In this document: piece by piece, positions 12,713 to 63,780 of the stretch | Layout: each line of letters opens with the position of its first letter | Numbering within the stretch: position 1 is the stretch's first letter | Source of the DNA: Defluviitaleaceae bacterium | Lineage (GTDB): Bacteria; Bacillota; Clostridia; Lachnospirales; WQUN01 | NCBI GenBank assembly: GCA_009786925.1 | Contig: WRGY01000124.1 | Span: 1 to 64,000 of the forward strand | DNA: 64,000 nucleotides | Direction: 5' to 3' | Program-made: the position numbers and the translations under genes | The notes under the pieces: generated by a model | Seen by the model: only the letters and a program-made list of their open reading frames with translations | Told to the model about the DNA's origin: nothing | Database searches by the model: none

Positions 12713-13114
12713 ATGTTTTTTGGGCTTCAATTTTTACAAGGCTTTTTTTTGTTTGGCCACTTGGCAGGCGGAAATTCCTTCCCGAAACCGCTTTCCGCAG
12801 AAGAGGAAAGAAAATACCTTCACGAGTACGTCCAAGGCAATGAGGACGCACGAAACATACTAATTGAACGCAATCTACGACTGGTAGCTTTTGTCGCAAA
12901 AAAGTACAACAACCACGCAAAAGACGCAGAAGACCTTATATCAATAGGAACCATAGGCTTGATAAAAGGCGTAGCCTCATTTAAACCCGATAAGGGCGTG
13001 AGGCTTTCTACGTATGCGATACGTTGTATTGAGAATGCTAAGTTCTTCTGTGTGACACACATCACTCCTTTCTTGTCCCTTCACGAAAAAAGGACTGTTT
13101 TCCATTCCTTTTAA
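12713..13114 (+). CDS. sigK: RNA polymerase sporulation sigma factor pro-sigma-K, N-terminal half (split by skin-type element)
   Basis: The ATG at 12713 follows a GGGAGGTG ribosome binding site; an earlier in-frame ATG at 12671 lacks one. The product starts with a hydrophobic leader (MFFGLQFLQGFFLFGHLAGG) then NSFPKPLSAEEERKY, closely matching the pro-sequence and start of Bacillus sigma-K. Sigma region 2 follows (ARNILIERNLRLVAFVAKKY, DLISIGTIGLIKG, LSTYAIRCIEN). Homology stops at Asn108 (13034), where the mobile element begins. The remaining 26 codons to the stop at 13114 are element DNA. As it stands the gene makes only a 133-residue fragment lacking region 4. Excision fuses it in frame to 22028-22402. 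The leader implies membrane-bound pro-sigma-K that also needs proteolysis, presumably by a SpoIVFB-type protease. Confidence 0.95.
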   Translation: MFFGLQFLQGFFLFGHLAGGNSFPKPLSAEEERKYLHEYVQGNEDARNILIERNLRLVAFVAKKYNNHAKDAEDLISIGTIGLIKGVASFKPDKGVRLSTYAIRCIENAKFFCVTHITPFLSLHEKRTVFHSF

Positions 13115-14803: not shown

Positions 14804-14821
14804 ACTCTCACCTTCCTTGAT

Positions 14822-38924: not shown

Positions 38925-40664
38925 CTACATGGGATAGGCTTCTTTTGCCTCATATTTTGTATGGAGAAGTTTATGCGCTTTATGGCTGTTTGGTTTTTCG
39001 AGATAGTCATCGTAGAGTTTTTTGATTTGTGGATTTTTGTGTGATTTACGTATAGCTTTTGCAGAATCTTCTTCATAGAGAGCAGTGGCGCGAGCAGCAC
39101 GAATGTCCGTAGTAGAACGTACCGTGGCCGAAATTTTTGGCTGTCCACCACCGTTTACACAGCCGCCGCTACATGCCATAACTTCTATAAAATCGTATTT
39201 TGCTTCACCCGCGTTGATTTTATCCAAAAGTTTTGCGGCGTTTGCTGTACCGTGGACTACAGCCACTTTTATTTTTTTGTCTCCGAGTGCTACATCGGCT
39301 TCTTTTATGCCTTCAAGTCCGCGGATGTTTTTAAATTCTACATCGGTGTCTTTGCCGGCTACTACTTCAGAGACAGTACGAACAGCTGCCTCCATTACGC
39401 CGCCTGTCGCTCCAAATATTACACCTGCACCTGTGTATTCCCCAAGCAGGTCTTGGTCAAAAGTGCTATCCTCAAGTGCATTAAACTTAATGCTTGCTTG
39501 TTTTATCATTTTTGCAAGCTCGCGAGTGGTCAGCACTGCATCTACGTCTCGCAAGCCGTTTACTTCCATTTCTGCGCGAGCAGCCTCTGATTTTTTAGAG
39601 ATACATGGTGCGATTGCTACCGAGAAAATTTTCTTAGCGTCTACACCTGATTTTTCTGCATAGTAAGACTTTACGATGGCACCAAACATTTGGATAGGCG
39701 ATTTGCAAGAAGACAAATTTGGGATAAATTCCGGATAATTGAACTCGCAAAAACGAATCCATCCGGGGGAGCAAGAGGTAATCATGGGTAATTTGCCGCC
39801 ATTATTTACACGGTCAAGGAGTTCATGACCTTCTTCCATAATGGTGAGGTCTGCACCAAAGTTGGTATCAAAAACTTTATTGAAACCGAGTCGTTTTAGT
39901 GCAGAAACCATCTTGCCTGTCACAAGTGTTCCTGCGGCCAGCCCAAATTCCTCGCCGAGTGCGGCACGTACCGCTGGTGCTGCCTGCACCACCACATGGG
40001 TATCTTTGCACTCAAGAGCCGCCCATACTGCATCAATGTCATCTTTTTCACGCAGTGCCGCTGTTGGGCATACGTTTACGCATTGGCCGCAATAGATACA
40101 GGGTACCTCAGTCATACTCTTATTGAAAAGAGGAGAAATTTTTGTGCTAATTCCGCGTTCTGTGAAGTCAAGGATTGCGGAGCCTTGTTCTTTTTTACAC
40201 ACATTTACGCAGCGACCGCATAGTATGCACTTGCTTTGATCGCGCACAATGGACGGAGAAGCGTCATCTAAGATGCCAAAATCATTTTCTCCCTCGAATG
40301 GGATTTCGCGTATTCCCATTTCTTCTGCTACCGTTTGCAATTCGCAGTTTTTGTTAGAAGGACACGCAAGGCAGTCACGGTTATGCGATGATAGGATTAG
40401 CTCAACAGTCGCTTTGCGTGCATCGCGTACTTTTTTGCTTGTTGTACTTATCACCATACCATCAAAAACAGGCATTACACATGCGGCAGCTAAAGCTCTT
40501 GCGCCCTGCACCTCTACTTGGCATACACGGCACGCGCCTATTTCATTTTTTTCTTTCAGGTAGCATAGCGTAGGAATATCTATCCCCACCTTACGCGCTG
40601 CATCCAAAATTGTACTATTGTTTTCTACTTCCACGGAGATGTTATCTATAGTTACCTTAACCAT
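38925..40664 (-). CDS. hydA: [FeFe]-hydrogenase catalytic subunit, HydA of NAD-linked trimeric enzyme
   Basis: 579 residues from the ATG at 40664, preceded by GGAGG; the frame extends further upstream into hydB but without homology. N-terminal 2Fe-2S domain (CYLKEKNEIGACRVC), His-containing Cys cluster (HNRDCLACPSNKNCEL), two 4Fe-4S motifs (CILCGRCVNVC, CIYCGQCVNVCP), then the H-cluster domain: L1 ITSCSPGW, L2 APCISKKSE, L3 MACSGGCVNGGGQ. L2 has APC where most monomeric enzymes have MPC. Subunits B and C are upstream. The complex oxidises or makes H2 with NAD and probably ferredoxin by electron bifurcation. Confidence 0.95.
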   Translation of the reverse strand: MVKVTIDNISVEVENNSTILDAARKVGIDIPTLCYLKEKNEIGACRVCQVEVQGARALAAACVMPVFDGMVISTTSKKVRDARKATVELILSSHNRDCLACPSNKNCELQTVAEEMGIREIPFEGENDFGILDDASPSIVRDQSKCILCGRCVNVCKKEQGSAILDFTERGISTKISPLFNKSMTEVPCIYCGQCVNVCPTAALREKDDIDAVWAALECKDTHVVVQAAPAVRAALGEEFGLAAGTLVTGKMVSALKRLGFNKVFDTNFGADLTIMEEGHELLDRVNNGGKLPMITSCSPGWIRFCEFNYPEFIPNLSSCKSPIQMFGAIVKSYYAEKSGVDAKKIFSVAIAPCISKKSEAARAEMEVNGLRDVDAVLTTRELAKMIKQASIKFNALEDSTFDQDLLGEYTGAGVIFGATGGVMEAAVRTVSEVVAGKDTDVEFKNIRGLEGIKEADVALGDKKIKVAVVHGTANAAKLLDKINAGEAKYDFIEVMACSGGCVNGGGQPKISATVRSTTDIRAARATALYEEDSAKAIRKSHKNPQIKKLYDDYLEKPNSHKAHKLLHTKYEAKEAYPM

Positions 40665-40677
40665 TATAATTTTCCTC

Positions 40678-42546
40678 CTACCCTTTTTTAATTGACTTGA
40701 ACGGACACACAGGAATGCAAGCACCGCATTTTATGCATTTTTCTGTATCAATTACATGGAGAGTTTTGACATCGCCCATAATTGCATCTACCGGACAAGC
40801 TTTTTTACATTTGGTGCATCCCTTGCATGTCTCATCAATGAAGAACTCAAGTAGTTCAACGCAGGTACCAGCAGGACATTTTTTGTCTTTTACATGGGCT
40901 TCATACTCTTCACGGAAGTAGCGCATGGTGGAGAGTACAGGGTTTGGTGCCGTTTGACCCAATCCACAGAGCGAAGATGCTTTAATATTTTGGGCAAGTT
41001 CGTATAAGCGGTCAAGGTCATCCATTTCGCCTTTGCCTTCGGTAATGCGCACGAGTGTTTCCAGCATACGCTTTGTACCCACACGACATGGCGGACATTT
41101 TCCACAAGACTCATCCACTGTAAAATCAAGGAAGAAGCGTGCGATGTCTACCATGCAGTTGTCCTCATCTATGACAACAAGACCACCAGAACCCATCATA
41201 GCTCCCAGTTCAAGCAAGCTGTCATAGTCTATTGGTGTATCAAGTTGTGTTTCTGTCAAACAGCCGCCTGATGGCCCGCCAATTTGTACAGCCTTAAACT
41301 TTTTGCCGTTAGGGATACCCCCGCCGATTTCGAATATGATTTCACGTATTGTTGTACCCATCGGTACTTCAATAAGTCCTGCGTTTTCGATTTTACCACC
41401 GAGGGCAAATACTTTTGTGCCTTTGGACTTTTCCGTGCCAATAGCGGTCAAAAAGCTCGCACCGTTTAGAATAATTTGCGGAATATTTGCAAATGTTTCT
41501 ACGTTATTGATAATTGTGGGCTTGCCCCATAGCCCTTTCACTGCAGGGAATGGCGGGCGTGGATTCGGCATTCCCCTTTTACCTTCAATGGAGTTTAGTA
41601 GTGCCGTTTCTTCGCCGCACACAAACGCACCTGCTCCAAGACGAATTTCCAAGTCAAAGTTGAAGTCTGATTCAAAAATATTATTACCAAGCGCACCAAA
41701 ATCTTTTGCTTGGTTAATTGCAAGTTGCAAGCGATTTACTGCAATCGGATATTCCGCACGTACATACACGAAGCCTTTGTTTGCACCGATTGCGTATCCT
41801 GCGATTGCCATTGCTTCTATTATAGAATGCGGGTCGCCTTCGAGAATCGAACGATCCATGAATGCACCTGGGTCGCCTTCGTCGGCGTTACATACGACGT
41901 ATTTTTGGTCGCTTTGGGATTTGTAGCCAAACTCCCACTTCATGCCTGTGGAAAATCCGCCTCCTCCTCGACCACGCAGTCCGCTGTCTTTTATTTCTTT
42001 TATGACATCCTCTTGTTTCATTTCAAATATAGCTTTGCCCAACGCCTTGTAACCATCAAATGCGATATACTCCGTGATGTTTTCGGGGTTAACGAGCCCA
42101 CAGAGGCGAAGAGCGATTCTTTTTTGGATTTTATAGAAAGGAACATGCTGGAAATCATCAATCGTGCCATCAGCTTCGATTGACTCTGGTAGAAGAAACT
42201 CCTTAACAGGCGCACCATCGACCAGATGTCCCTGTGTAATCGCAGGTATATCTTTTAGCTCTATACGGCTGTAGAATGAGCCTTCCGGATAAATAATAAC
42301 AATAGGTCCTACTTGGCAATACCCAAAGCAACCTGTGCGTACTATATCTACTTTGTCGGTGAGGTTATGGTTTCTTAGTTCCTCTGCAAAAGCTGCTTCT
42401 ATTTTTTCTGCATCAGCTGATAAGCAGCCTGTACCTTGGCAGATGAGTACGTGGCGTTTGCCTTCATATTCCTTTCCGCCGAGACGTAGTTCCAAATTCT
42501 TTATGGTTTGTTGTCTTATGTTTTCGAATTTTTCCAATGCTTTCAT
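40678..42546 (-). CDS. hydB: NADH-binding subunit of hydrogenase, HydB (NuoF-like)
   Basis: 622 residues. The N-terminus carries a thioredoxin-like 2Fe-2S domain (CQGTGCLSADA ... RTGCFGYCQVGP), the middle the FMN/NADH fold (GLRGRGGGGFSTGMKWEF, CNADEGDPGAFMDRS), the 4Fe-4S site SCGKCPPCRVGTKR, and the C-terminus two ferredoxin motifs (CKGCTKCKKACP, CIKCGACIPVCP). It oxidises NADH and passes electrons to HydA. It lies 13 bp upstream of hydA and 15 bp downstream of hydC. Confidence 0.95.
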   Translation of the reverse strand: MKALEKFENIRQQTIKNLELRLGGKEYEGKRHVLICQGTGCLSADAEKIEAAFAEELRNHNLTDKVDIVRTGCFGYCQVGPIVIIYPEGSFYSRIELKDIPAITQGHLVDGAPVKEFLLPESIEADGTIDDFQHVPFYKIQKRIALRLCGLVNPENITEYIAFDGYKALGKAIFEMKQEDVIKEIKDSGLRGRGGGGFSTGMKWEFGYKSQSDQKYVVCNADEGDPGAFMDRSILEGDPHSIIEAMAIAGYAIGANKGFVYVRAEYPIAVNRLQLAINQAKDFGALGNNIFESDFNFDLEIRLGAGAFVCGEETALLNSIEGKRGMPNPRPPFPAVKGLWGKPTIINNVETFANIPQIILNGASFLTAIGTEKSKGTKVFALGGKIENAGLIEVPMGTTIREIIFEIGGGIPNGKKFKAVQIGGPSGGCLTETQLDTPIDYDSLLELGAMMGSGGLVVIDEDNCMVDIARFFLDFTVDESCGKCPPCRVGTKRMLETLVRITEGKGEMDDLDRLYELAQNIKASSLCGLGQTAPNPVLSTMRYFREEYEAHVKDKKCPAGTCVELLEFFIDETCKGCTKCKKACPVDAIMGDVKTLHVIDTEKCIKCGACIPVCPFKSIKKG

Positions 42547-42561
42547 ATATAAGCCCCCTAC

Positions 42562-43047
42562 TTAGTATTTTGCAATAATTTCTTTCATTTCGCCACCCTT
42601 TACAGTTAGGCGACCGTATACATCCTCGTTTACAAGAACAACGGGAGCCAATCCGCAAGCACCTACACAGCGAGTCGCCATTAAGGTAAACTTATAATCT
42701 GCGGTTGTTTCTCCCGATTTTATACCAAGTTCTGTTGTTACTTCGTCAACCAGTTTTTGCGCGTCTTTCACGTAGCACGCAGTCCCCATGCACACACTAA
42801 TGATGTAGTCACCTTTAGGCTCAATGGAAAATTGATGATAAAAGGTAATCACCCCGTAAATTTCTGCGATAGGGATATTTAGCTCCTTAGCAATAATCTT
42901 TTGCACCTCGGCAGGGATACAGCCAAAGATTTTTTGGCTTTCATTTAATACAGGCATAAGCCCGCCCTTTTTTTCCTTGTTGACTGCCAAACATGCTTCG
43001 AGTCTTTTAAGGCGTTCGGGCGTTACTACTTCTTTTTTTACAGACAT
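42562..43047 (-). CDS. hydC: 2Fe-2S subunit of hydrogenase, HydC (NuoE-like)
   Basis: 161 residues from the ATG at 43047 with AGAGAGG upstream. The thioredoxin-like 2Fe-2S domain has cysteines in SVCMGTACYVK and ATRCVGACGLAP, matching the C-x4-C ... C-x3-C pattern of NuoE. ITFYHQFSIEPKGDYIISVC is the conserved strand before the cluster. First gene of the hydCBA operon behind a strong promoter. Confidence 0.95.
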   Translation of the reverse strand: MSVKKEVVTPERLKRLEACLAVNKEKKGGLMPVLNESQKIFGCIPAEVQKIIAKELNIPIAEIYGVITFYHQFSIEPKGDYIISVCMGTACYVKDAQKLVDEVTTELGIKSGETTADYKFTLMATRCVGACGLAPVVLVNEDVYGRLTVKGGEMKEIIAKY

Positions 43048-43089
43048 ATTATGTATCCTCTCGTTATGCCATGCGGCATTTTTGTGCAT

Positions 43090-43196: not shown

Positions 43197-45620
43197 ATGA
43201 GCAAATCTAAAAAAATAGTTGAAGTGAGCAACAATTTAGAAGAGTTGCAAAATGAAGTTCGTTTACTTAGGGCAAAATTAACTCTCGCAGAAGCCGATAC
43301 ATATGCGGCGCAGATGCAAGCGTCCGTAGGCAACAGAGATACCACAGGTCTAAGCAAAGACGATGAGTTAAAAATAAAGTATTTTGACTTTATTTTAGAA
43401 AAGACTGAGAATATTATTTTCTTCTTGGATGTTGACAAAAAGTTCACTTACGCTTCTCGTTCTTTTTTGAATAAGGTGAAAAAAGAAAATTACGATTTGA
43501 TAAATGGGAAATACTACAGAGATGTCCTAAAACCTTATATAACTAAGACAAATTTCAATAGGCTTTCAGGTGCGGTAAACAATGCAAAAACAACTAACGT
43601 AGTAATCCCTTTCGATGAGGAAACAGATGAAGAGGGCGTGAAGTCTATGTATCTCACGCATGTTTTTCCTATGATAGAAAATCTTGGTGCATTTAAAGGG
43701 ACAATGGTTTTGATTAAAGACGTAACAGCTATCAAAAATGCAAAAGAGGTCGCGGAGCAAGAGCAATTCCTGAAATCCAAATTTTTATCAAATATGAATC
43801 ATGAAATCAGGACTCCATTGAATGCAATTATCGGACTTTCTACCATAGAGTTGGATAAAAAATCTCATCGCCCGAAAACATTAGAAGCATTTGAAAAAAT
43901 CAACCTCTCTGGCAGAAATCTCATGGATGTGCTAAACGACATCATCGACCTATCTACGATGGAAGCCGGGAAACTGGAGATTAACAACAATGTGTATGAC
44001 ACAGCTGCATTGATAAATGATGTCATATGGCTTAACGTAATGCGCATAGGTGATAAACCTATTAACTTTGAAGTAAAACTTTCAGAGAAAATACCAGCAT
44101 ATCTGGTAGGTGACGAGCAACGCATAAAGCAGGCCATAAACAATCTGCTATCCAACGCAATAAAATACACAGACCATGGTAGTGTTATTTTTGAAGTAGG
44201 ATGTAAAAACACTAAGGGTGACTGTAAGCTTATTGTGACGATACGGGACACCGGACAAGGAATTTCTAAGTCTCAACTTGAACTGATTTTTGATAAAGCG
44301 TCTCTTGCCGCACATGATTTTAATCGTGAAACAGAAGGTGCGGGGTTTGGCCTGTTTATAGCAAAAAATCTTGCTACGCTTATGAAAGGTGACATCTCAG
44401 CAGAAAGTGCGCTTGGCGCAGGCTCGGCGTTTACCATGAGCTTTATACAAAAAATCAGTAAAAATACATCAAACATCGGTATAAAAACTGCCGAGCGTTT
44501 ACAAAATTTCAAGTTCTCTGGTATGCAAAAACCAAAACTCGTGCGAGATTACATGCCGTACGGTAAAATTTTAATCGTAGACGACATGAACACAAATCTA
44601 TTTGTCGCAAAAGGGCTGATGAAGCCATATGGGTTAGACATAGATACCGCATTAAGCGGCTATGAGGCATTGGAGAAAGTGAGCGAAGGAAAAGTTTACG
44701 ATATTATTTTCATGGACCACATGATGCCCGGTATGGATGGCATGGAAACCACAAAAAAAATGCGTGAGGAGGGTTATAAACACCCCATAATTGCACTCAC
44801 CGCAAACGTAACTGCCGGTGTATCCTCATTTACGGATAATGGATTTGACGACTTTATCGCAAAACCGATAGATACTATGCAACTCAATGTATGTTTAAAT
44901 GCATTCGTGCGTGACAAGCAAACAGCGGAAACTCTGGAGGCTGCAAATAAGCAAAAAGAAGCCGATGATGCCGCCGCTGAAGAAGCCGCAAAAATCCCCG
45001 TTTCACCGACGGATTTCGAAGATGCAAACGACCCGCTAACTCTTCTTAAAAAGATACAAGACCTTGATGTAGATACTGCTGTAGATGCAATGAGTGGTTT
45101 GCCCGACCTCTACATTGACACCGTAAAACTTACACTAAAGCTACTGCCTGAAAGGATAACGAAACTCGACGACTATTTGGAAAGTGACTTAAAATCCTTT
45201 ACAATTGAAGTTCATGGCTTAAAAAGTGCAATGAAAAATATAGGTGCGGCAAAACTCGGTAATAGCGCGTCACAGCTTGAGCGTGCCGGCATCGAAGAAA
45301 ACTTGCAATACTGTAAAGAGCATTATCCGCCATTCAAAGATGAGCTTCTTAGGCTAAAAGAAAAACTTGATGAGGCATTGCCATCTGATACAGAAGTAAA
45401 AGAAATTGCCAACAAATCTGACCTGCTTCCTGCTATTGCAGAAGCAAAAGCAAAGGCAGAGGATTATAACCGCGACGCGGCATTGGAAATCATCCAAGAA
45501 AAAGCCAAGTTTTCTTATGATGAAAAAACTGATGAACAATTGCAAAAGGTCATATCTGCACTGGAGGCTTTTGATTGTGAAGGTGCTAAAAATATATTAA
45601 TTGAACTGGAGGAAATATAA
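43197..45620 (+). CDS. Hybrid sensor histidine kinase with PAS, receiver and HPt domains
   Basis: 807 residues, no membrane segment, so a cytoplasmic sensor. Order: short coiled-coil (1-50), PAS (about 60-175), HisKA with phospho-accepting His in FLSNMNHEIRTPLNAIIGLS (about 200), HATPase (NNLLSNAIKYTDHGSV; DTGQGIS; GAGFGLFIAKNLA), receiver (about 455-575; KILIVDDMNTN, IIFMDHMMPGMDG with phospho-Asp, ALTAN), then HPt near 660-720 (EVHGLKSAMKNIGA with His) and an extra helical tail. It should relay phosphate His-Asp-His to a partner, most simply the response regulator encoded 1 bp downstream. Confidence 0.93.
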   Translation: MSKSKKIVEVSNNLEELQNEVRLLRAKLTLAEADTYAAQMQASVGNRDTTGLSKDDELKIKYFDFILEKTENIIFFLDVDKKFTYASRSFLNKVKKENYDLINGKYYRDVLKPYITKTNFNRLSGAVNNAKTTNVVIPFDEETDEEGVKSMYLTHVFPMIENLGAFKGTMVLIKDVTAIKNAKEVAEQEQFLKSKFLSNMNHEIRTPLNAIIGLSTIELDKKSHRPKTLEAFEKINLSGRNLMDVLNDIIDLSTMEAGKLEINNNVYDTAALINDVIWLNVMRIGDKPINFEVKLSEKIPAYLVGDEQRIKQAINNLLSNAIKYTDHGSVIFEVGCKNTKGDCKLIVTIRDTGQGISKSQLELIFDKASLAAHDFNRETEGAGFGLFIAKNLATLMKGDISAESALGAGSAFTMSFIQKISKNTSNIGIKTAERLQNFKFSGMQKPKLVRDYMPYGKILIVDDMNTNLFVAKGLMKPYGLDIDTALSGYEALEKVSEGKVYDIIFMDHMMPGMDGMETTKKMREEGYKHPIIALTANVTAGVSSFTDNGFDDFIAKPIDTMQLNVCLNAFVRDKQTAETLEAANKQKEADDAAAEEAAKIPVSPTDFEDANDPLTLLKKIQDLDVDTAVDAMSGLPDLYIDTVKLTLKLLPERITKLDDYLESDLKSFTIEVHGLKSAMKNIGAAKLGNSASQLERAGIEENLQYCKEHYPPFKDELLRLKEKLDEALPSDTEVKEIANKSDLLPAIAEAKAKAEDYNRDAALEIIQEKAKFSYDEKTDEQLQKVISALEAFDCEGAKNILIELEEI

Positions 45621-45621
45621 T

Positions 45622-46629
45622 ATGCAGGTTTATGACGGAGGACGATATTATCACAGCATACCAGGTCTGCTTGTTCCAAGGTCTGTAACAAACGACGATG
45701 TGCATTTTGCAATAAACAGCTTTATTGATACAATCCCAGGGCTTACAGAACGGCTGGAGAACACCCTGCTAAACCAAGGCGTGGGTACTCTTGAGTTTTT
45801 TTCTGAAACAATGGAAACTGTCATAAAGCTACTTAAAAGCATTTATGCTCGCGGTTTGGAGACGCAGGCCATGCGCTTGTTGCGTTGTGCAAAAGAAGAA
45901 TCAATGCTGACTACCGCAAAAAAAAATCTGAAGCCCTTTGTCACAGACGCACTTTCTCTCTCCGTAGCAATGCAAAAAGCTCAATCTCTCCGTGAAGAAA
46001 AAAAGCCGCCAAGCAAAATAGAAATCTATGCAAATATAGCAAAATCAATTTCTGCGGTTAACACTTTGCTTGAGGATGGATTTTATGAGCCTGCAAAGAT
46101 TCTTATAAAAGAGCTGTCTGACCATAACCCAGAGGCTTCTGTTTTTATAAGCCTACTAAATTTAATTAATGCCGAAAAATACGAGGATGCAAAAAACCAA
46201 ATATCCACTCTTAATGCAAAGTTTAACGAAACAATAAACAAACTCGCCGGCACAGACCTCTCCAAGAAAATTTTGGCAGTTGATGATATGCCTGAAATCC
46301 TATCATTTGTAAACAGCGCGCTGAAAAATAATTATCGAGTATTGGCCGCTCCGGGGGGTCAAGCTGCGCTTAAAATCATGGAGAGCCAAAAACCCGACCT
46401 GTTTATCCTGGACATCGATATGCCTGGTATGGACGGTTTTGAGTTGGCTGTACGTATACGGCAAATGCCCGACCACGCAGAAACGCCTATAATATTCCTC
46501 ACGGGCAACTCATCTCGTGAATATATCAATAATGCTACACAATGCGGCGGCAATGAGTTTATAGTAAAACCTGCTACACATGATTATCTGTTAACTAAGG
46601 TTGGTAATTTTTTAAGTGCTAAAGAATAA
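45622..46629 (+). CDS. Response regulator with novel N-terminal region and C-terminal receiver
   Basis: 335 residues from the ATG at 45622 (GGAGG upstream). The first 210 or so residues are helical and unrecognised, starting YDGGRYYHSIPGLLVPRSVT. The receiver is at the C-terminus: KILAVDDMPEILSFVNSALK, LFILDIDMPGMDGFELAVRI (phospho-Asp), IIFLTGNSS, and FIVKPATHDYL. No DNA-binding output is present, so the N-terminal half may be the effector or an HPt-like dock. Likely partner of the preceding hybrid kinase. Confidence 0.88.
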   Translation: MQVYDGGRYYHSIPGLLVPRSVTNDDVHFAINSFIDTIPGLTERLENTLLNQGVGTLEFFSETMETVIKLLKSIYARGLETQAMRLLRCAKEESMLTTAKKNLKPFVTDALSLSVAMQKAQSLREEKKPPSKIEIYANIAKSISAVNTLLEDGFYEPAKILIKELSDHNPEASVFISLLNLINAEKYEDAKNQISTLNAKFNETINKLAGTDLSKKILAVDDMPEILSFVNSALKNNYRVLAAPGGQAALKIMESQKPDLFILDIDMPGMDGFELAVRIRQMPDHAETPIIFLTGNSSREYINNATQCGGNEFIVKPATHDYLLTKVGNFLSAKE

Positions 46630-46923: not shown

Positions 46924-47001
46924 ATTGATTCTCCTCCTTTCATTTTTTTTATTATTTCTAACTGTGGGAGAAAATATGCGTTTTATTTTTTAAATTTGGG
47001 A

Positions 47002-47030
47002 TTGAAATTTTAAGAGCCACGCGGTATGCT
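47002..47030 (+). promoter_or_regulatory. Promoter of the Sia-like operon
   Basis: TTGAAA (47002-47007) and TATGCT (47025-47030) with a 17-bp spacer. The -10 box covers the ATG at 47026, so that codon would be upstream of the transcript start. This argues for the GTG at 47077 as translation start. Confidence 0.6.
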
Positions 47031-47076
47031 ACACTTTAGAAAAAAATTACATATAAAAAAGTTAGGTGGGTTCATA

Positions 47077-47808
47077 GTGGAGGATATTTATGGGAACGAG
47101 CAACGCATACTCGATGAGGCACAATTGCGCATAAAGGCGGTCAAGAGTGGTGCAGAGTATGACTTTGGCGATTATATTTTTATTGTTAAGGAATACAGGA
47201 AAATCCTGAGGCATTTGCGTCGTACGACAAAAATCGCTGACAGTATTTCTAACAAACTCCATGTGGACAACCTTGAACTAAACGAAAAAGTACATCTTGA
47301 CGCTCTTACCGGAATTTATAACAGGCGATATATGGAAGAAAGCTTGAGCCGTATTAAAAAATCACTATCACGTTCCAGTGATGTATTAAGCATATTGATG
47401 TTGGATATAGATTTTTTCAAGGGCTACAATGACACCTATGGTCACGCCGCCGGGGATGTTTGTTTGAAAACAATTGCAGAAGCAATTGATAACAGTCTTT
47501 TTCGTCCTGATGATTTTGTGGCTCGATATGGCGGAGAAGAATTTATCATTGTTCTGCCAAACACATGCAAAAACGGCGCGTGTCATATGGCCAAAAAAAT
47601 TATAAAAAACATAGGACACTTGAAAATACCGCACGAAAAAAGTGAAATAGCTACTCATGTTACCGTTTCTATAGGTGCGGCTACGGGACATGTGGAACGT
47701 CATGGAAAAATTGATGAATACGTAGAATGTGCGGATACCGCACTATATACGGCAAAAAATAGTGGGCGCAACAGGTATATCCACAAAAACTTTAATGAAA
47801 GAGGTTAG
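47077..47808 (+). CDS. GGDEF diguanylate cyclase, SiaD-like
   Basis: 243 residues from a GTG at 47077 with AGGTGGG 6 bp upstream; the frame opens earlier at 47026 but that ATG lies in the promoter. The N-terminal 80 residues are helical, then the GGDEF domain: LDALTGIYNRRYMEESL, LMLDIDFFKGYNDTYGHAAG, and the active site GGEEF in VARYGGEEFIIVLP. RPDD five residues before it is an intact inhibitory I-site. It makes c-di-GMP from GTP. It is 2 bp from the SiaA-like gene. In Pseudomonas SiaD is activated by the phosphoprotein SiaC; the four-gene set here suggests the same logic. Confidence 0.9.
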   Translation: MEDIYGNEQRILDEAQLRIKAVKSGAEYDFGDYIFIVKEYRKILRHLRRTTKIADSISNKLHVDNLELNEKVHLDALTGIYNRRYMEESLSRIKKSLSRSSDVLSILMLDIDFFKGYNDTYGHAAGDVCLKTIAEAIDNSLFRPDDFVARYGGEEFIIVLPNTCKNGACHMAKKIIKNIGHLKIPHEKSEIATHVTVSIGAATGHVERHGKIDEYVECADTALYTAKNSGRNRYIHKNFNERG

Positions 47809-47810
47809 AT

Positions 47811-49802
47811 ATGAAGCTATCAACGAGATTAGTCATGAGCATCATTGCAACATCTGTTATCGGGTTGTTGGTAGCCTTTATTGTTGTTAACTCGTTTGTG
47901 CGTAATGCAGTGCTTGATAATATACTGGAATCTGTACAAAACAATATGACCGTGTATGCAAGTGAGCTTGACTCTTGGTTTGTTAATAATTTGATTGTAA
48001 CCGACACTATGGCAATTACTATGTCCGCGCTTGACCGAGAGCATGTTCACTATATCGCGCTAAATGTGTACGAACAATTTGATTTTGTTGCTATGGCCTA
48101 TGTGGGGTTTGGTGTAGACGATACGTTTGACTCTTGCTCTATCAGGTATGTCTATGATTGGGTTTTGCAAGAACGGCCTTGGTTTATACAAGGGAGAGCC
48201 GCCGGTGGAGAAACTGTTTTTACCAATGCATATGTTAACTGGCTGTACCCCTTCGATTTGGTCATTTCTGTTGTGCGGCATATGCCGGATTGGTATGATG
48301 CAGTTGTGGCTGTAGACTTTATTCTTTCTGACATCGCTGACGTTTTGGCGGATGTCGAAGTACCCGGTGATGGATATGTTTTCATTTTAGATAACCGAGG
48401 ATATATTGCAAATCACCCAAATCCCGATTTTGCACCCACTGCAACATATTTGCGCAACTTTAGAGATTTTCCTATTTACGCACCGCTTGCTCATATTATT
48501 GATACATCGTGCGGAATCACGACGTTTATTAATTACAATGGCATTTATTCGTATATGATGACATTTGCAATGAGTGCCGCCGACTGGACATTGGTTAGCA
48601 TTATGCCGACCACTGTCACATCCGAACCGGTTTTTCAAATCCTAAGTATCATCATGATAACGTTTTTTCTGATTTTATTTGTATCATTTGCATTTATATT
48701 ATTATATATCCCAAATATTATTGGAAATACCTCTGCAAGGATAAATAACCGTATCCGTGACTTTAAAGACTATACCACCGCCGTGGCAAAGGGTCTGGAA
48801 ACAGACAAAAATCTTGATATTGAAAATATTGACACCTCATTTGGTCTCGACAAAATATCTACAGCTTTTGACGAAAATATGCGCGAAATACTCGCATTGA
48901 TTAAAGATATGACACAAATGCATCGCGAGCGCAATAAAGGCAACTACACTGCATTATTGGACCCAAACAACTATGCCGGCGCATATGAAGAACTGGCTCG
49001 CAACCACAATAACATGGTGGAAGAGTTGGCAGAGAGACTCCTGATTATCAATGAAAGCATAGAATACGCAAGTGTAATCCAACAAAATCTTCTTCCCGAT
49101 GCCGACCTGTTTAAGCAAGTCTTTTCGGATTATGCAATAAAATGGGAGCCACGAGATGTGGTGGGTGGTGATATGTATTGGATTAAAACTTTTGAGGCGG
49201 GTACAGTCCTTTGTGTTGCCGACTGTACGGGGCATGGGACAGCGGGTGCGTTGCTTACTATGCTTGTGGGTTCTGCTTTTGAAGATTTAATAAATGAAGA
49301 AAACTGTAGCGACACGGCACAGTTGATTTGGAATTTGGAAAAACGACTGTTGGATATTTTTGGGACAAGGACAAATAGTTCTGACTACACAATGAAGGAC
49401 GGCTGCGATATGGTCGCACTGTTTATTGCAAAAGATAAGAGCATATCCCTGTCTGCTTGCAACACAAATTTTTTCATATGCAATGGAAAAAAAGTAGAGC
49501 GGGTAAAAGGTCAATACGCCTTTATAGGCGAAGGTAAATTGCAAAGCAAGGACGATATAAATACAATCCAAATACCGTTTGATGCAAGCAATAAATTTTA
49601 TATATCCTCGGATGGTTTATTTGAACAACCGGGGGGGGCAAAGGAACAGAAATACGGCTACAGGGAATTTGAACAAATCATACTGGAAAATCACAACGAA
49701 AGCCAGTCCGTCATCACTGACAAGGTATGGGAAGCCTTTGAAGAATACAGAGGCGAATACAGGCGAGTAGACGATTTTGAGCTGATTGCGTTCACATTAT
49801 AG
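47811..49802 (+). CDS. SiaA-like PP2C/SpoIIE phosphatase with extracellular Cache-type sensor
   Basis: 663 residues. First membrane helix at 9-30 (IATSVIGLLVAFIVV), an extracytoplasmic Cache-like domain to about 275 (RPWFIQGRAAGGETVFTNAY, VVAVDFILSDIA, GYVFILDNRGYIANHPNPDF), a second helix at about 280-305, a HAMP-like linker, and a PP2C/SpoIIE domain from about 430 (PRDVVGGDMYWIKTFEAG, CVADCTGHGTAGALLTML, DGCDMVALFI, ISSDGLFEQPGG). Metal-binding aspartates are intact. It should dephosphorylate the SiaC-like protein in response to an external ligand. Confidence 0.92.
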   Translation: MKLSTRLVMSIIATSVIGLLVAFIVVNSFVRNAVLDNILESVQNNMTVYASELDSWFVNNLIVTDTMAITMSALDREHVHYIALNVYEQFDFVAMAYVGFGVDDTFDSCSIRYVYDWVLQERPWFIQGRAAGGETVFTNAYVNWLYPFDLVISVVRHMPDWYDAVVAVDFILSDIADVLADVEVPGDGYVFILDNRGYIANHPNPDFAPTATYLRNFRDFPIYAPLAHIIDTSCGITTFINYNGIYSYMMTFAMSAADWTLVSIMPTTVTSEPVFQILSIIMITFFLILFVSFAFILLYIPNIIGNTSARINNRIRDFKDYTTAVAKGLETDKNLDIENIDTSFGLDKISTAFDENMREILALIKDMTQMHRERNKGNYTALLDPNNYAGAYEELARNHNNMVEELAERLLIINESIEYASVIQQNLLPDADLFKQVFSDYAIKWEPRDVVGGDMYWIKTFEAGTVLCVADCTGHGTAGALLTMLVGSAFEDLINEENCSDTAQLIWNLEKRLLDIFGTRTNSSDYTMKDGCDMVALFIAKDKSISLSACNTNFFICNGKKVERVKGQYAFIGEGKLQSKDDINTIQIPFDASNKFYISSDGLFEQPGGAKEQKYGYREFEQIILENHNESQSVITDKVWEAFEEYRGEYRRVDDFELIAFTL

Positions 49803-49816
49803 AGAAGGAGAGTGGC

Positions 49817-50377
49817 ATGATGGATTTTGATGTTTTAGAGTTTAGCAAAATGCTGTCAGAGAAGAAAATAACCGTGATTTACAGCGGCCCGATATGGGCA
49901 GATGGCGTGGAAGGCATGGCAGAGTTTCTACAGAGGAAGCTGGATGTTGATAATTTGTCACGCACTGTTTCCAAGTCGATTTTCTCGGTGTTTGTAGAGC
50001 AGATGCATAATATGCTTATGTATTCGGCAGAAAAGGAAATATTTACAGCTGAAGATGATGATGATGCCGTTCTCTCTAAAGGGATGTTTGTTATGGGCAA
50101 AGAGGGAGACACCTATTTTATCAAAACCGGGAATGTAGTAACCGATTACAGTGCAGGTGTTTTGAAAGAGCGTATAGACTATCTCAACACGCTGGATAAG
50201 CAGGGCCTAAGGCAGTATTTTAAAGAAAAACAGAGAAGTGATGATGACAACCCCGAGAGCAAGGGCGCGGGCATGGGGCTAATCGAAATTGCAAGGCGGT
50301 CATCATCCAAAATTAATTACAAATTTACACCGCAGGGCGAAGGCTTTAAGTACTTCTCCATGTCTGTAGAAATTTAA
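49817..50377 (+). CDS. SiaB-family protein kinase (DUF6272)
   Basis: 186 residues. KSIFSVFVEQMHNMLMYSAE looks like the N-box helix and SKGAGMGLIEIARRSSSKIN the G-box of a compact GHKL-type kinase, as in SiaB. SiaB phosphorylates SiaC. GAAGGAGAG precedes the start, 14 bp after the phosphatase gene. Confidence 0.88.
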   Translation: MMDFDVLEFSKMLSEKKITVIYSGPIWADGVEGMAEFLQRKLDVDNLSRTVSKSIFSVFVEQMHNMLMYSAEKEIFTAEDDDDAVLSKGMFVMGKEGDTYFIKTGNVVTDYSAGVLKERIDYLNTLDKQGLRQYFKEKQRSDDDNPESKGAGMGLIEIARRSSSKINYKFTPQGEGFKYFSMSVEI

Positions 50378-50392
50378 GAAGGAGGTAGCGAT

Positions 50393-50779
50393 ATGTCTTT
50401 TTATATGGAAAAACAAAAAACAGGCTCTACGCCATATATTTTGATTGATGAATCAAAGGGTTATATGAAAATGAGCGGCAAGAGTTTTCCGGAAAAAGCA
50501 CTTGATTTTTTTGGAGAAGTTATTACCTGGCTGGACGGCTACCTTGCTACAGACTTTGGTGAGTTTTTGTTTGACTTTGCAATGGAATATCATAATAGCT
50601 CTACGCTAAAGGTCATAACAAATATGCTGATGAAGATGGACGAATGCGCCGTCAGCGGCAATAAAATCACCGTAAACTGGATTGTTGCCGAGGATGACGA
50701 AATCATGATAGAAAGTGGCGAAGATATACAAGAGGATGTCCATAATCTAACGTTTAATGTGGTAGTGGTGGACGAATAA
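50393..50779 (+). CDS. SiaC-family regulatory phosphoprotein (DUF1987)
   Basis: 128 residues. ILIDESKGYMKMSGKSFPEK, FFGEVITWLDGYLAT and MEYHNSSTLKVITNMLMKMD match the SiaC/DUF1987 pattern. By alignment with Pseudomonas SiaC from memory, Thr68 there corresponds to Ser69 here (HNSST), so phosphorylation would be on serine. The unphosphorylated form is known to bind and activate the diguanylate cyclase. An AAGGAGG site lies 15 bp past siaB. Last gene of the operon. Confidence 0.88.
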   Translation: MSFYMEKQKTGSTPYILIDESKGYMKMSGKSFPEKALDFFGEVITWLDGYLATDFGEFLFDFAMEYHNSSTLKVITNMLMKMDECAVSGNKITVNWIVAEDDEIMIESGEDIQEDVHNLTFNVVVVDE

Positions 50780-50781
50780 TC

Positions 50782-51387
50782 TTATAAATTCCCATAGTAC
50801 TCCAGACCTAGCTGTGTACGGTTTTTTACATTTAATTTTTCCATGATGACTACTATGTTGTTGCGTACTGTTCCTTCGCTTAGGAATAGAGATGCGGCGA
50901 TTTCTTTGTTTGTTTGACCCCGGGTGATTAGGCGAGCTATGTCCTTTTCTCGTGGGGTCAGGGTAGCAAGGGCGGGGTTTTCTTGGGGGGAAAGATTGCG
51001 CAGGACTTCTGCATCAAGGATGCTTGTTCCGCTGACTAACAGTCGGAGCTTGTCTGCGATTTGAGCAATTTTATCTGTCTTTAAGAGATAGCCGTCCGCT
51101 CCTGCGGCAAGGGCTTGTAATATATTTTGGCGGTCGTCAAAGGTAGTCAGCATCAGGATTTTAATCTGAGGATGACGTTGTTTTATCAGTCGAGTGGCGG
51201 CTATTCCGTCTGTGACGGGCATTCTTATGTCCATTAATATAATGTCGGGTGGGTCAGCAGAGCAGATGTCTACTGCTTCTGCTCCATTGGAAGCTGTGGA
51301 TAGCACATCTATATCACTCTGCTGCTCCAGCTTTATTTTTAAGCTTTTGATAATTAATGGGTCGTCGTCTACTATCAATACACGCAT
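50782..51387 (-). CDS. NarL/LuxR-family response regulator
   Basis: 201 residues from the ATG at 51387 with AAAGGAAA upstream, 2 bp after the kinase stop. Receiver: MRVLIVDDDPLIIKSLKIKL, PDIILMDIRMPVTDGIAATR (phospho-Asp), MLTTFDD, GYLLKTD. LuxR HTH at the C-terminus: LTPREKDIARLITRGQTNKE and LFLSEGTVRNNIVVIMEKLN. It probably controls the ABC exporter genes encoded upstream in the same unit. Confidence 0.95.
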   Translation of the reverse strand: MRVLIVDDDPLIIKSLKIKLEQQSDIDVLSTASNGAEAVDICSADPPDIILMDIRMPVTDGIAATRLIKQRHPQIKILMLTTFDDRQNILQALAAGADGYLLKTDKIAQIADKLRLLVSGTSILDAEVLRNLSPQENPALATLTPREKDIARLITRGQTNKEIAASLFLSEGTVRNNIVVIMEKLNVKNRTQLGLEYYGNL

Positions 51388-58638: not shown

Positions 58639-60411
58639 TCACCAATACAATTCGTCCAGATTAAACGCGCCCGCGTGATATAGTGCAGATACGTGGCTTT
58701 CGCTCGCGTTTTCGATTGAGAAGAGATTCATCCTGCCTTGACCGCGCTGTTCATAGCATTTTTTTGTCTCGAAGGCCTGTGCCGACGGTACATATAGGTT
58801 AGCCTCCGTATGCAGTTTTGCATAGCCCGTCTTTAGTCGGATGCCGAGATGATTGTTTTGTGCCACCCACTCACTTAATGCCTCTGCCGGTGGCTCGTCA
58901 CCGATTAACTCTTGCAGGATTTCCATGATGGGACGGCTAAACTCTTGCGATGTAATAATGTTTTTTTCTATGAAATCCATTAGCCGTTTTTTAAAACCGG
59001 AAAAATCATTTTTGTCGAAGTACTCCATCATTTCTCTATGCAAATCCTCGATTTGCGTCTTATGTGACGTAGCGTATGAAATAAATTTTTCCTGGAAATA
59101 GGATAATGCATTATTGCAAAAACCTTCGAACATCTTGTTTATTTCTTCTGCCTTTTTTTCTTGCTCGGATATTGTTTTGTTGATTTCGGACTCGTAGCGG
59201 CAGAGTTTTTTATGATACACAGATATTTTGCGCCGTTGGCGTTCCATGATTTTTATTTTATCTTTTATATGCTTTATGTCGTTTTGCTTGCGTAGATACT
59301 CATGTGCAATATTGTAGGGCAACAGCTCTTGGCTCTTCAGCGGAGAAAGGCGGCGTGTGATGTACTCGTCTCTTTCAGGGGGCTTTGCAAGCCAGTTTTT
59401 GCATTTTTCCTCTTCGGAATGCAGGACTGCGATTGCATTTTCTGTGTTTTCCCTTGCTGTTTTTTCAAAAAAACCGCCCTCGGATGTACAACGCAATAAG
59501 TCATAAATGCTTGTTGCTTGTGGTGCTATATTCTCCTCTTTAAAATCGGCTTCGTCCCAGTCATTATCAAGGCTGTCAAGCTTTAGACCAAAACATCTTT
59601 TTATCCACTGCCCGCGTGTTAGTGGGTCAGCATAGTTTGCATCCGGGATGGCAATACCATACAGATACTCCATGGTTTTTGTTGGATGCTTGGGCGGGAA
59701 CTCCGGTGTCTTTAGCTGTGGTGGTTGGTTTTGTATGTCGTATTTTAGTATTTCTGCCATAAGCAGAGATTTTAATGCGTCTTGCGGTATATTTAATTTT
59801 ACACTACCTGCTGTGAGAAAATCCCCGTTTCTTGCCGCACAGTTCTTGAGAAAAAACATTTCGCTGTAACGAGACGCGTCTGCCTCTGCTACATTTAAAC
59901 TCTGTGATGAGTTTTTAAAAAGTGTGAGCATCGCCATAGTCTGGGCAATTGTCTCTTTTTGTATAAAAGATGCTGTGCTTGTGAGGTTTGAAAGCAGATA
60001 TATGTTTAGTCCCTCACCCTTTATTTCGTCAAGCATTGCTATTGCAGATTTTCTTGTTTCGTCCGTCAGATTAGAATCATCAAACAGACAATACACATCC
60101 CCTAGTATGCCCGCGGGATATAGTGGCGAAAAAAATTTTTCTGCTGCGACAATCAAGTCAGGCAAGTTGAGTGCGGTGTCATCAGCGTTGATTAAAAAAT
60201 TAGCACGTAGTATGTCTGCTTTGTACACTCCTAAAAACTCTTGCCAAATACGTTTTACTTCTTTTTTAATGAAATCTTCGTCAAAATCCTGCGGAACTTT
60301 TATAAAACCAACGCCACTCATATAGTCAGAAATTGCGTCGGATAAAAACGGCAAAAACTCATGGCAACTGCCAAGACCCAACAAAACCACGGGATTATTT
60401 AGTGTTTTCAT
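58639..60411 (-). CDS. Unknown 590-aa protein, possibly a degenerate tubulin-like companion
   Basis: 590 residues from the ATG at 60411, which overlaps the stop of the tubulin-like gene (ATGA). The N-terminus NNPVVLLGLGSCHEFLPFLS mirrors the first strand and loop of the tubulin-like protein (DKPILILGLGGTGAEALIRV). NIYLLSNLTSTASFIQKETI at 136-155 occupies the place of the tubulin glycine-rich loop but lacks the glycines, so GTP binding is unlikely. Residues 370-430 are a strongly charged coiled-coil. The C-terminal 150 residues are unrecognised. It may be a nonfunctional-GTPase partner of the tubulin-like protein; this is inference from two short stretches. Confidence 0.75.
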   Translation of the reverse strand: MKTLNNPVVLLGLGSCHEFLPFLSDAISDYMSGVGFIKVPQDFDEDFIKKEVKRIWQEFLGVYKADILRANFLINADDTALNLPDLIVAAEKFFSPLYPAGILGDVYCLFDDSNLTDETRKSAIAMLDEIKGEGLNIYLLSNLTSTASFIQKETIAQTMAMLTLFKNSSQSLNVAEADASRYSEMFFLKNCAARNGDFLTAGSVKLNIPQDALKSLLMAEILKYDIQNQPPQLKTPEFPPKHPTKTMEYLYGIAIPDANYADPLTRGQWIKRCFGLKLDSLDNDWDEADFKEENIAPQATSIYDLLRCTSEGGFFEKTARENTENAIAVLHSEEEKCKNWLAKPPERDEYITRRLSPLKSQELLPYNIAHEYLRKQNDIKHIKDKIKIMERQRRKISVYHKKLCRYESEINKTISEQEKKAEEINKMFEGFCNNALSYFQEKFISYATSHKTQIEDLHREMMEYFDKNDFSGFKKRLMDFIEKNIITSQEFSRPIMEILQELIGDEPPAEALSEWVAQNNHLGIRLKTGYAKLHTEANLYVPSAQAFETKKCYEQRGQGRMNLFSIENASESHVSALYHAGAFNLDELYW

Positions 60412-63400
60412 GCAAGTACTTTCTTTTGCTGTGCAAACACCTCGCACATAGTACGATAGAATACACGCTTTAGGCTACCCTCTCGTTCGTCTGAGTAGGA
60501 TTTTTCCAGCTGTTCCAATTTTTCTCTATAATCATTGAGGATGTCATCTATATATGCAACTATTTTGACAAAATGTGCATCCTCTAGCTGATTTTCGTGT
60601 TCCTGGGCATTTTTTTGGAGATAGTCTGTGATGTCGTCGTCCAAGTCGATATATGCTTTGAAAACATCGTAGTCCACATATCTGTCAGAAATATTTTGCA
60701 TCGTATAAAGGATTTGTGTCTCTCCATCTATGATGTAGCGATAGTTTTTGCGGTTTTTTGTAATCACCTTCATATACAGCATCTGTGCAAAATGGCTGTA
60801 TTTTACCTCACTCAAGTCTATTTTTGTAAGCTCGTCGCGCAGGGCGGCGATATGCTCACGGATTTTAACTTCTTGTTTTACACGCTCATATAATGCGGGC
60901 ATATAGATAAATACACCCTTTGCGTAGTCGATGTCAGGGTCGTCGCTCTCTTGCAGGTATTCTGTGTCAAACAATGGACGAAAATATTTTTCTCTATCGG
61001 GAGATGCGAGAAACTCGTTTAGTTCTGTGATGGCGGCACGAGCTTGTGTTGCATTTAGGGTTTTCTCTGTTATTCCGCTTTCGATATGTGCAAAACGCTC
61101 ACCAAGGTCTATATGGTCGCCATAGAAACCAAAATAACAGCGGGTGCGTTCTTCCAGTCGGATTATTTTATATTCCAATGCCAAGTCAAAAAGCTCACGC
61201 AGTCGATTGTTTTTTAGACGTTCGCGGTTGTTTTCATAGTCGGTTGTCCATAGCTGGTCATAGTTTGGCGAAGGCAGTTCTTTCCAGTTGCGCTCCGGGC
61301 ATTCATATAGATGCAGACCAGCGATTTTGTTAAAGGATGTCTCGTACACAGCCTCATACTCGTTTAATTCTGTATAACAATATAGAGGAACTGCAATTTT
61401 TAGATTTAACATATAAAGGCGGTTGTTCATTTTGCTTGACTTCATGTTAGAAACACGACCTGATGTGTTTAGTTGGCGCACTACGCTTTTGATTTGCGGA
61501 GCATTATAGGGCACGGAAAGATATGCATACGGCGGGAAAACAATATGCAAGCCACTCGGCACATGATTTATAGGGAACATGACCTTAGCACTGTCATGCA
61601 GGTCATTGATTTTGACCGATACATATTCTTCCAGACCGATTTCGGCAGTTGCTGCCATCATATTGCAGTAGTAGTCAAGCGATTTGTGTACAACATTTTG
61701 GAATTGTTGCGTTATGAAATCATTGAGATTATCAACTATTTGTGTCCCGTTTGCGTCATGCCATTCGGGATTTGCAATCATGTCTTTTAAAAGTCGATTA
61801 AGCGATTGTTTGTAATCTAGTGTTTTTGTAGAGTCATCATCTTTTTCGAATGCATCACAAAATTCCTTTGTCCCTGACAAATCCTTTGCAAAGCTGTCAT
61901 CAGAAAAAGCAGAGTTTTGTGCATTTTTAAATTTGTCGAATAATTCTTTAAATGAGTTAAGCACTTCACAGAGGGTATCTACGGTTTGTTCGTTTAACTC
62001 GTTTAACTTTGCCAGCACAGAGTCATATATATGGTCGATTGCGTCGTACATGAGATTTTTTCCACATGCACGGAGATAGCTTTCGTTTGCTTCTACGATA
62101 TTAAGCGCGAGGCTTTTTTTGCCAAAACCAAAAATTGATTTTTTAAGTAGTTTGGCCATAACCGCTTGGCGACCTATGTCCATGGCGGCTATACTGTCGC
62201 GATGCTCACGTTTTTGTTGGATGTCGCGTTTGCGGATTGTGTCAATCTCGCGGTTTAGTGAAGCCTCATGCAGGTCAGAAAGTAGGCGCAATGTATAGTA
62301 CGGACCACGCTCCAGGTCAGAAAAATTTTGATGTATTATATTGTTTTTGTCAGTGATTGCTTCGTTAAAGGCGGAGATGACTGCCTCTGCGGCATTGCTG
62401 TAATGGTCTTTCATTTTGTTTAGCTCATTTTTAACCGCATCTTCGATGATTTCCGGGCGTTGTTGCAATACTATATGGTCGTATTTTTTGAAATTACGCT
62501 GTTTTGGTTTGTCGGTAGAAAGAGTCCTTTCCAGAGTGGGCAAGTCTATTTTGAAGCTTTCAAGCGCGATTTTAGAATCCTCAATTGTGGGATTTTTTTC
62601 TGAAAGTGGCTCAAGCTCTGCAAACATTTTTGATGTGAGATAGTTTAACAAATATTCTATTGGCAAGGACGCACTGGATGCACCCACCGTGTTATAGATG
62701 TAGTTGACAGGTTGTTTTTGACTATGCGTCATCAAGAATGCAGCTTTGTTGTTTTCTATATTAGAAAGGTAGGAGCTTATTGTATAGCTTTGGCCATCGG
62801 TTACTTCTTCGCTTGCGATAAAGTTAATGATTGTCTCGGCTGCGACGTTCATACAATAGTTTTTTGCAGAAGGCACAAGCTTACCATGCTCATCCTTAGC
62901 ACTTACGAGATGGCACAAGTCATATGGTGGCTCATTGGATTTAATTTCGAGGTCAGCAAATGTCTGTTCAAAAATATCACCGTTACGCTCTATATTCATT
63001 AGATAATCAAGCTCTTTTAATGCGGCAAACCCATTTGCTTTGATGTTGAGCGCGGCAGAGCCGTCTATCATACTGTCGGAGAGTGTAACATCGGGCAAAA
63101 ACACCATGCCGATATTTTCTGTCTCAAAACCTTTTTGCTCCGCGATTTTGCGTACAATATATGGGACATCAATAAAAACACCGCTTCCTGTGCCACCTGC
63201 GCAGCCCGCTAAAATAAAAACGTATAGCAGGTCATTAGATTTCCTGTTAACGGTGAGTCGATTTATTTTTTCTGTAAGTAGACTGATTACACGATTGCTG
63301 TTTATGGTGAGCAACAAACGACCGGCTTGGCGGATGCCGCCCGCACCATGTTTCACCTGTTGTAGACGCAAATTCCCTGCAATCCAGCTCTGGGTAGAAT

Positions 63401-63770: not shown

Positions 63771-63780
63771 CAACTAACCC

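Follow-up and report, generated by a model that had tools for sequence, protein, structure and literature searches.

The closest described relatives of the genes treated here form the SiaABCD system of Pseudomonas aeruginosa (structures 6k4e, 6k4f, 6kko and 7e6g), in which the phosphatase SiaA and the kinase SiaB set the phosphorylation of SiaC, and SiaC controls SiaD, a diguanylate cyclase that makes cyclic diguanosine monophosphate (c-di-GMP). The available part of one paper describes a predicted catalytic Glu in SiaB (PMC7647112). That of another presents SiaD as a small N-terminal domain, a stalk and a GGDEF domain, with no membrane domain mentioned, and has SiaC docking on two stalk motifs, S50/Q54 and S82/Q86, the second of which, next to the GGDEF domain, offers contacts at R74, K77, R80, I81, S82, D83, R84, Y85 and Q86 (PMC8457831). 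The same portion suggests that DUF1987 proteins, the family of SiaC, control adjacent proteins generally. It also covers HsbA-HsbD and BgrV-BgrR, STAS partner switches in which a small protein set by the switch likewise controls a cyclase; SiaC differs in belonging to PF09345, a family of its own for which a structural relationship to STAS is stated (PMC8457831). SiaABCD is mentioned once, in the accessible text of a further paper, as a place where PP2C/STAS and c-di-GMP systems meet (PMC9239204). The window analysed here, a stretch of 64,000 nucleotides (nt) from a Defluviitaleaceae bacterium (GenBank assembly GCA_009786925.1, contig WRGY01000124.1, positions 1 to 64,000), holds an operon that family matches, solved relatives and operon structure support well as a SiaABCD-type phospho-switch.

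The four genes are intact and adjacent on the + strand at 47077-50779, in the order D-A-B-C, with gaps of 2 nt (D/A), 14 nt (A/B) and 15 nt (B/C). The features are:

47002..47030, + strand: promoter-like TTGAAA-17-TATGCT, a consensus match only.
47064..47069, + strand: probable ribosome-binding site AGGTGG, 7 nt ahead of the GTG, read directly from the sequence.
47077..47808, + strand: D, siaD-like diguanylate cyclase, 243 amino acids (aa), GTG start; stalk (residues 1-73) and GGDEF domain with RPDD I-site and GGEEF A-site.
47191..47259, + strand: residues 39-61 of the D stalk, holding the motif around the invariant Asp55 on which SiaC probably docks, placed by alignment and by the P. aeruginosa SiaD contacts listed in the available part of PMC8457831.
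47811..49802, + strand: A, siaA-like membrane phosphatase, 663 aa; transmembrane helix (TM), extracellular sensor (weak dCache), TM, helical linker, PP2C/SpoIIE domain.
49817..50377, + strand: B, siaB-like kinase (DUF6272, SiaB family), 186 aa, Glu61 and Asn65 retained.
50393..50779, + strand: C, siaC-like phosphoprotein (PF09345), 128 aa, probable phosphosite Ser69.

A sequence-only reading of this stretch had proposed a SiaD-A-B-C-like operon behind one promoter in a Clostridium-like spore former. The tight run of cyclase, phosphatase, kinase and phosphoprotein is confirmed, as are the GGEEF cyclase with its intact RPDD I-site and the DUF6272 and DUF1987 proteins. Pfam places D in GGDEF (PF00990, E 7.9e-50), A in SpoIIE/PP2C (PF07228, E 3.3e-12), B in DUF6272 (PF19788, E 1.9e-38) and C in SiaC (PF09345, E 3.4e-34), and B scores 163 bits with the SiaB family model NF038262, above its cut-off of 85. 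Gene order was also borne out, as the only real one among the differences from Pseudomonas that had been listed. The single promoter was not established: 19 promoter-like consensus matches were found against 12.9 +/- 3.4 in shuffles, which is not clearly over chance. A c-di-GMP riboswitch or other RNA element was considered and dropped, no Rfam match in the window reaching gathering scores.

The switch proteins themselves have SiaABC as their nearest solved relatives. B is closest to SiaB (6kko_A, E 1.2e-14), its Glu61 aligning with the predicted catalytic Glu of the P. aeruginosa protein as described in the available part of PMC7647112. C is closest to SiaC (6kko/6k4f, E 2e-13), with Ser69 in register with Thr68 of the Pseudomonas protein. 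The earlier proposal of Ser69 as phosphosite thus keeps its position but loses its oddity: all 42 SiaC compared, the window's among them, have Ser at the Thr68-equivalent position, as do the proteins of two Clostridia further removed (G161 and G418), so that by alignment the Thr of Pseudomonas is the exception within the compared set. The PP2C part of A is closest to that of P. aeruginosa SiaA (6k4e, E 2.3e-31), with conserved catalytic motifs. In the Cache-HAMP-PP2C architecture read earlier, the PP2C domain is secure on PF07228 and 6k4e, the Cache domain is a weak match under the Pfam cut-off (dCache_1, E 8.4e-6, 25.9 of 45 bits), and HAMP was not detected in A by Pfam at E<=0.01. The sensor also gives weak matches to those of PctA/B/C (E 1e-5 to 5e-4), and the topology given above for A is a reading of sequence and model.

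The cyclase carries the part of the argument that concerns docking. Its reading frame is open from an ATG at 47026, which would lie inside the -10 box if the promoter is real; the GTG at 47077, where similarity to relatives begins behind the AGGTGG, appears the likelier start. The nearest sequence relatives of D are GGDEF domains of the WspR type, with SiaD 7e6g matching at E 1e-26. A structure model built with 26 relatives, with a mean predicted local distance difference test score (pLDDT) of 87.7, has helices at 4-23 and 30-73 followed by the GGDEF domain, and 7e6g aligns along its entire length (Foldseek E 4e-19, rank 8; VIA alignment Z 24.1, with a large root-mean-square deviation of 22.9). 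The stalks of relatives (L031 and L069 were excluded from the stalk alignment, A3) hold one motif of the kind on which SiaC docks in P. aeruginosa, R-x(3,5)-[KRHTSNQG]-x-[SAT]-D-[RKSMN], a regular expression composed after the sequences had been inspected, in which the Asp is invariant. The N-terminal stalk of D is the probable dock of SiaC. That D is cytosolic had been counted as a difference from Pseudomonas, which does not hold, since the available part of PMC8457831 describes SiaD likewise without a membrane domain.

The entire operon lies on an insertion of 3.8 kb, at a place where a genome of the same genus, G023, has 11 bp. Two further features belong to this comparison:

46991..50803, + strand: inserted segment bearing the entire operon, from blastn of the flanks against G023:C60.
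43197..46629, + strand: gene pair just upstream, for a hybrid histidine kinase (PAS, stalk absent) and a response regulator, from domain matches and flank comparison.

DNA similarity ends at window position 46990 and resumes at 50804, the breakpoints on G023:C60 being 2607 and 2619 of L124. A single G023 contig carries the flank genes in the same order, namely kinase, regulator, DUF378, LuxR-type regulator, second kinase and ABC genes, with protein identities to the window of 77, 83, 91, 77, 45 and 32-74%. In G022 DUF378 adjoins the LuxR-type regulator and second kinase, and the operon is absent. SiaC was found in none of nine congeners, in 7 of the 38 family genomes and in 3 of 391 sampled Clostridia, the window's own genome counted in both of the latter. 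Gain of the operon in the window lineage is the simplest reading of these comparisons. No direct or inverted repeat bracketing the insert was found at its ends, and base composition does not discriminate it (GC 40.4%, window 42.4%). The kinase beside the insert has a weak PAS match and no stalk. Close homologues of this kinase-regulator pair follow siaC in the locus L059/L174 (L174:532-3676, E 2e-192 and 2e-100), where the kinase, unlike that of the window, bears the stalk.

The genome itself (2.28 Mb in 127 contigs, the window on contig C124) belongs to the class Clostridia, as the sequence-only reading had supposed, and to a family whose identifiable members are termite-gut metagenome-assembled genomes (MAGs), several of them titled Defluviitaleaceae; it is very probably a termite-gut MAG. 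The suggestion of a spore former is softened to spore formation being possible, given the Spo0A gene. The genome contains two SiaC, two SiaB-family kinases and ten GGDEF matches and, being 89.97% complete, may lack further operons. The second SiaC, on C36, is part of another complete operon, arranged D-B-C-A and with an A that differs from the window's. The right flank of this operon is conserved without it in G023; its left flank was not found on that G023 contig. A third stalk cyclase, on C62 (L031:871-1611), has no adjacent SiaC.

How far does such an operon reach beyond this genus? The named genomes of GTDB r220 were scanned with two short peptide patterns drawn from eight family sequences, which gave 36 SiaC loci in 31 genomes; the scan covers a subclade and not all SiaC, at least one (L181) having been overlooked. 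Termite-gut MAGs account for 34 of the 36, spread over Bacillota, Spirochaetota and Fibrobacterota. Sample codes of a higher-termite study, known here from part of PMC7024585, mark 27 loci, and one further locus is from Candidatus Fibrimonas termitidis, termite by name. The two outside the 34, L053 ('Deltaproteobacteria' Smac51) and L066 (Negativicutes), are of unsettled habitat. By taxon the loci fall in Clostridia, Negativicutes, Treponema, Fibrobacterota and the Smac51 lineage. Within the window's own family, five of the seven SiaC-bearing genomes (G012, G013, G016, G035 and G036) match termite-gut records. On a D+B+C tree of 29 operons (28 of them different; L052 with runs of N, L028 with a cut SiaC and loci lacking D were excluded) Clostridia need six changes and Spirochaetota four, and Fibrobacterota form one clade. 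The approximately unbiased (AU) test rejects a single clade for Clostridia (p 2.2e-51), for Clostridia with Negativicutes (1.6e-9) and for Spirochaetota (1.1e-4). Patchiness and the empty site together apparently reflect horizontal transfer of the operon among termite-gut bacteria, and its spread across phyla within one habitat suggests a sensing need common to gut symbionts.

The stalk is not confined to cyclases. A stalk profile gave 36 matches in 24 of 30 SiaC-locus genomes, and five of these lie on histidine kinases, the other 31 having been domain-checked only in part. Four of the five kinases stand in SiaC operons, and in two of these operons there is no cyclase. The arrangements are hybrid kinase-A-B-C without a cyclase (L048/L173), kinase-A-D-B-C (L055/L175), A-D-B-C-kinase-regulator (L059/L174) and, in a Treponema (L181:3183-7530, G432:C29), a LytS-type kinase followed by a 295-aa gene, A, C and B, again without a cyclase; the fifth, a hybrid kinase (L176), has no SiaC nearby. 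The cores of the five are those of hybrid HisKA (PF00512) and LytS-type (PF06580) kinases, from which they differ in the SiaD-type stalk at the N-terminus and, in four cases, in their place in SiaC operons. The [SAT]-D pair is in register in all 26 operon cyclases and all five stalk kinases, and in 1 of 10 orphan cyclases. At the probable dock the other nine orphans carry three inserted residues and mostly read S-E-R instead of S-D-R; the lone orphan that keeps the motif (L082) is from a genome 80% complete (G019). That orphan stalk cyclases bind SiaC in the same way was accordingly rejected, the motif being altered in 9 of 10.

Elsewhere, 14 of the 38 genomes of the family are hit by the stalk profile; nine of these have no SiaC match and hold one orphan stalk protein each. 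In the sample of 391 Clostridia it finds the window genome, G161, where a GGDEF protein follows SiaA, and weakly G378, where inspection of the match (L179, E 2e-4) revealed no convincing gene. In G418 a stalk cyclase is adjacent to SiaC. Two family genomes (L073 in G035, L074 in G036) have a SiaA without recognised sensor together with B and C, and no stalk match was found in either genome.

Together, these results make it probable that the window operon works by the SiaABCD mechanism. The phosphorylation chemistry, direction of control, docking and c-di-GMP output would then follow P. aeruginosa, as described in the available parts of PMC8457831 and PMC7647112. The membrane phosphatase A would sense an extracellular cue and dephosphorylate Ser69 of C, and kinase B would rephosphorylate it. 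Unphosphorylated C would dock on the helical stalk of D, join two D and turn on c-di-GMP synthesis, phosphorylated C would release D, and the c-di-GMP produced would inhibit D at the I-site. On the larger scale, the chances look about even that SiaABC is a horizontally shared termite-gut cassette in which SiaC, under phosphorylation control, dimerises a portable stalk, with at least three kinds of output (cyclase, hybrid kinase and LytS-type kinase) and with varied inputs, among them [FeFe]-hydrogenase and EAL domains on the phosphatase. A-B-C would then have moved between phyla in termite guts with its sensors on A and its stalk enzymes exchanged, the window copy arriving as the 3.8-kb insertion beside a two-component gene pair. 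Ser phosphorylation would in that case control His-Asp signalling by docking. The stalk kinases fit the general control of adjacent proteins suggested for DUF1987 proteins in the part of PMC8457831 cited above. If the stalk is indeed the dock of SiaC, histidine kinases, and not cyclases alone, can be driven by a Ser/Thr partner switch, which joins two signalling worlds by way of a single small adaptor, and the kinases offer direct access to the effect of SiaC on its partners. Among the titles and abstract openings listed for SiaABCD-related and termite literature, none describes SiaC control of histidine kinases or a termite-gut clade. The histidine-kinase outputs, like the insertion, the second operon and the distribution across phyla in termite guts, are new relative to the sequence-only reading.

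The window operon resembles that of P. aeruginosa in its four families, in a phosphorylatable residue at the Thr68 position, in the PP2C and SiaB catalytic motifs and in a GGDEF domain with I-site behind a helical stalk; it differs in the order D-A-B-C, Ser for Thr and the sensor on A. Several observations weigh against the SiaABCD mechanism. The NCBI SiaD, SiaA, SiaB and SiaC equivalog models match D, A, B and C below their cut-offs (NCBIfam scores 167.7/290, 154.1/700, 96/225 and 78/150), and the earlier claim of a SiaD-A-B-C-like switch therefore stands at the level of families: the operon is of SiaABCD type without being the Pseudomonas module itself. The model of A is poor in its sensor part (pLDDT <50 over residues 50-173). 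Where SiaD has two docks, only one is recognisable on the stalk of D, no second motif being seen, and Gln86 of the Pseudomonas motif is not conserved in the relatives. The stalk profile reaches 7e6g only at E 0.4, which is not significant and leaves stalk homology unproven by sequence; searches with a trimmed profile and with a stalk taken from a more distantly related Clostridia cyclase do not list 7e6g at E<=10. (The best PDB match of the profile, the prolyl isomerase 8zht at E 0.0014 over 38 residues, was judged chance.) WspR and other helical-stalk cyclases equal or surpass SiaD in their fit to the D model, with WspR, PleD and DgcB among the top Foldseek matches. These share the GGDEF fold and helical stalk of D. 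In WspR and PleD, control comes from a built-in receiver domain rather than from a separate phosphoprotein.

Could the stalk, then, be a mere dimerising coiled coil, with C acting elsewhere, for example on the neighbouring histidine kinase and response regulator? Besides the lack of significant similarity to the SiaD stalk, 11 of 36 loci have no cyclase in the fetched stretch (some stretches being cut) and the stalk profile finds nothing in 6 of 30 genomes, so C must have other partners there, and the close homologues of the kinase-regulator pair do sit in another SiaC operon. The Asp motif, however, is kept in 31 of 31 operon stalks against 1 of 10 orphan cyclases, and the window kinase lacks the stalk and has its locus without SiaC in G023, which leaves this alternative improbable. 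Docking on the stalk, if it occurs, raises the separate matter of insulation. Both operons of the window genome are complete, their SiaC pair being 56% and their SiaD pair 53% identical with the motif in both, so either SiaC may dock on either cyclase and two signals feed one c-di-GMP pool. Each operon has its own A, B and C, which speaks for separate channels; such cross-talk is a tentative possibility, compatible with the SiaABCD mechanism.

The patchy distribution might, for its part, stem from old paralogy and many losses, the ancestors of several phyla having had a number of Sia operons that most descendants lost. Several genomes indeed hold two or more SiaC copies, and copies within one genome differ (the window copy and L022). 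The two operons of the window genome are not sisters in the tree, although a sister pair is not rejected (p-AU 0.335), which the notion of old paralogy can also claim. Against it stand the clean 3.8-kb empty site in G023, the presence of SiaC in 0 of 9 congeners and only 2 of 390 other Clostridia, the clustering of matches in one habitat across phyla and the many recurrences that loss would need, and it is unlikely, if less so than the coiled-coil alternative.

The inputs of the switch vary as the outputs do. Best domains other than PP2C and HAMP were counted in 37 SiaA proteins, the window A and 36 others: dCache in 14 (part of them, the window's included, under the Pfam cut-off), 4HB_MCP in four, PAS in three, [FeFe]-hydrogenase in two (L051 and L066), EAL with CBS in one (L070) and SBP_bac_3 in one (L040), with HAMP only in seven and none in five. 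In the SiaA homologues L051:2333-4426 and L066:5391-7466, ferredoxin and [FeFe]-hydrogenase domains are fused to PP2C, a possible hydrogen sensor driving the c-di-GMP switch. Hydrogen is a central gut intermediate, and these domains make it a testable signal. The homologue L070:1611-3695 has an EAL domain and CBS ahead of PP2C, possibly a c-di-GMP feedback into the switch.

Elsewhere in the window, on the - strand, a large serine recombinase lies beside McrC-like and AAA_5 (possibly McrB-like) genes at 12980-18807, possibly a mobile restriction island. Also on that strand, [FeFe] hydrogenase genes with NuoF- and NuoE-like subunits occupy 38928-43089, and a protein of 1121 aa that bears a tubulin-like domain (Tubulin_2) lies at 60411-63773, with further genes after it.

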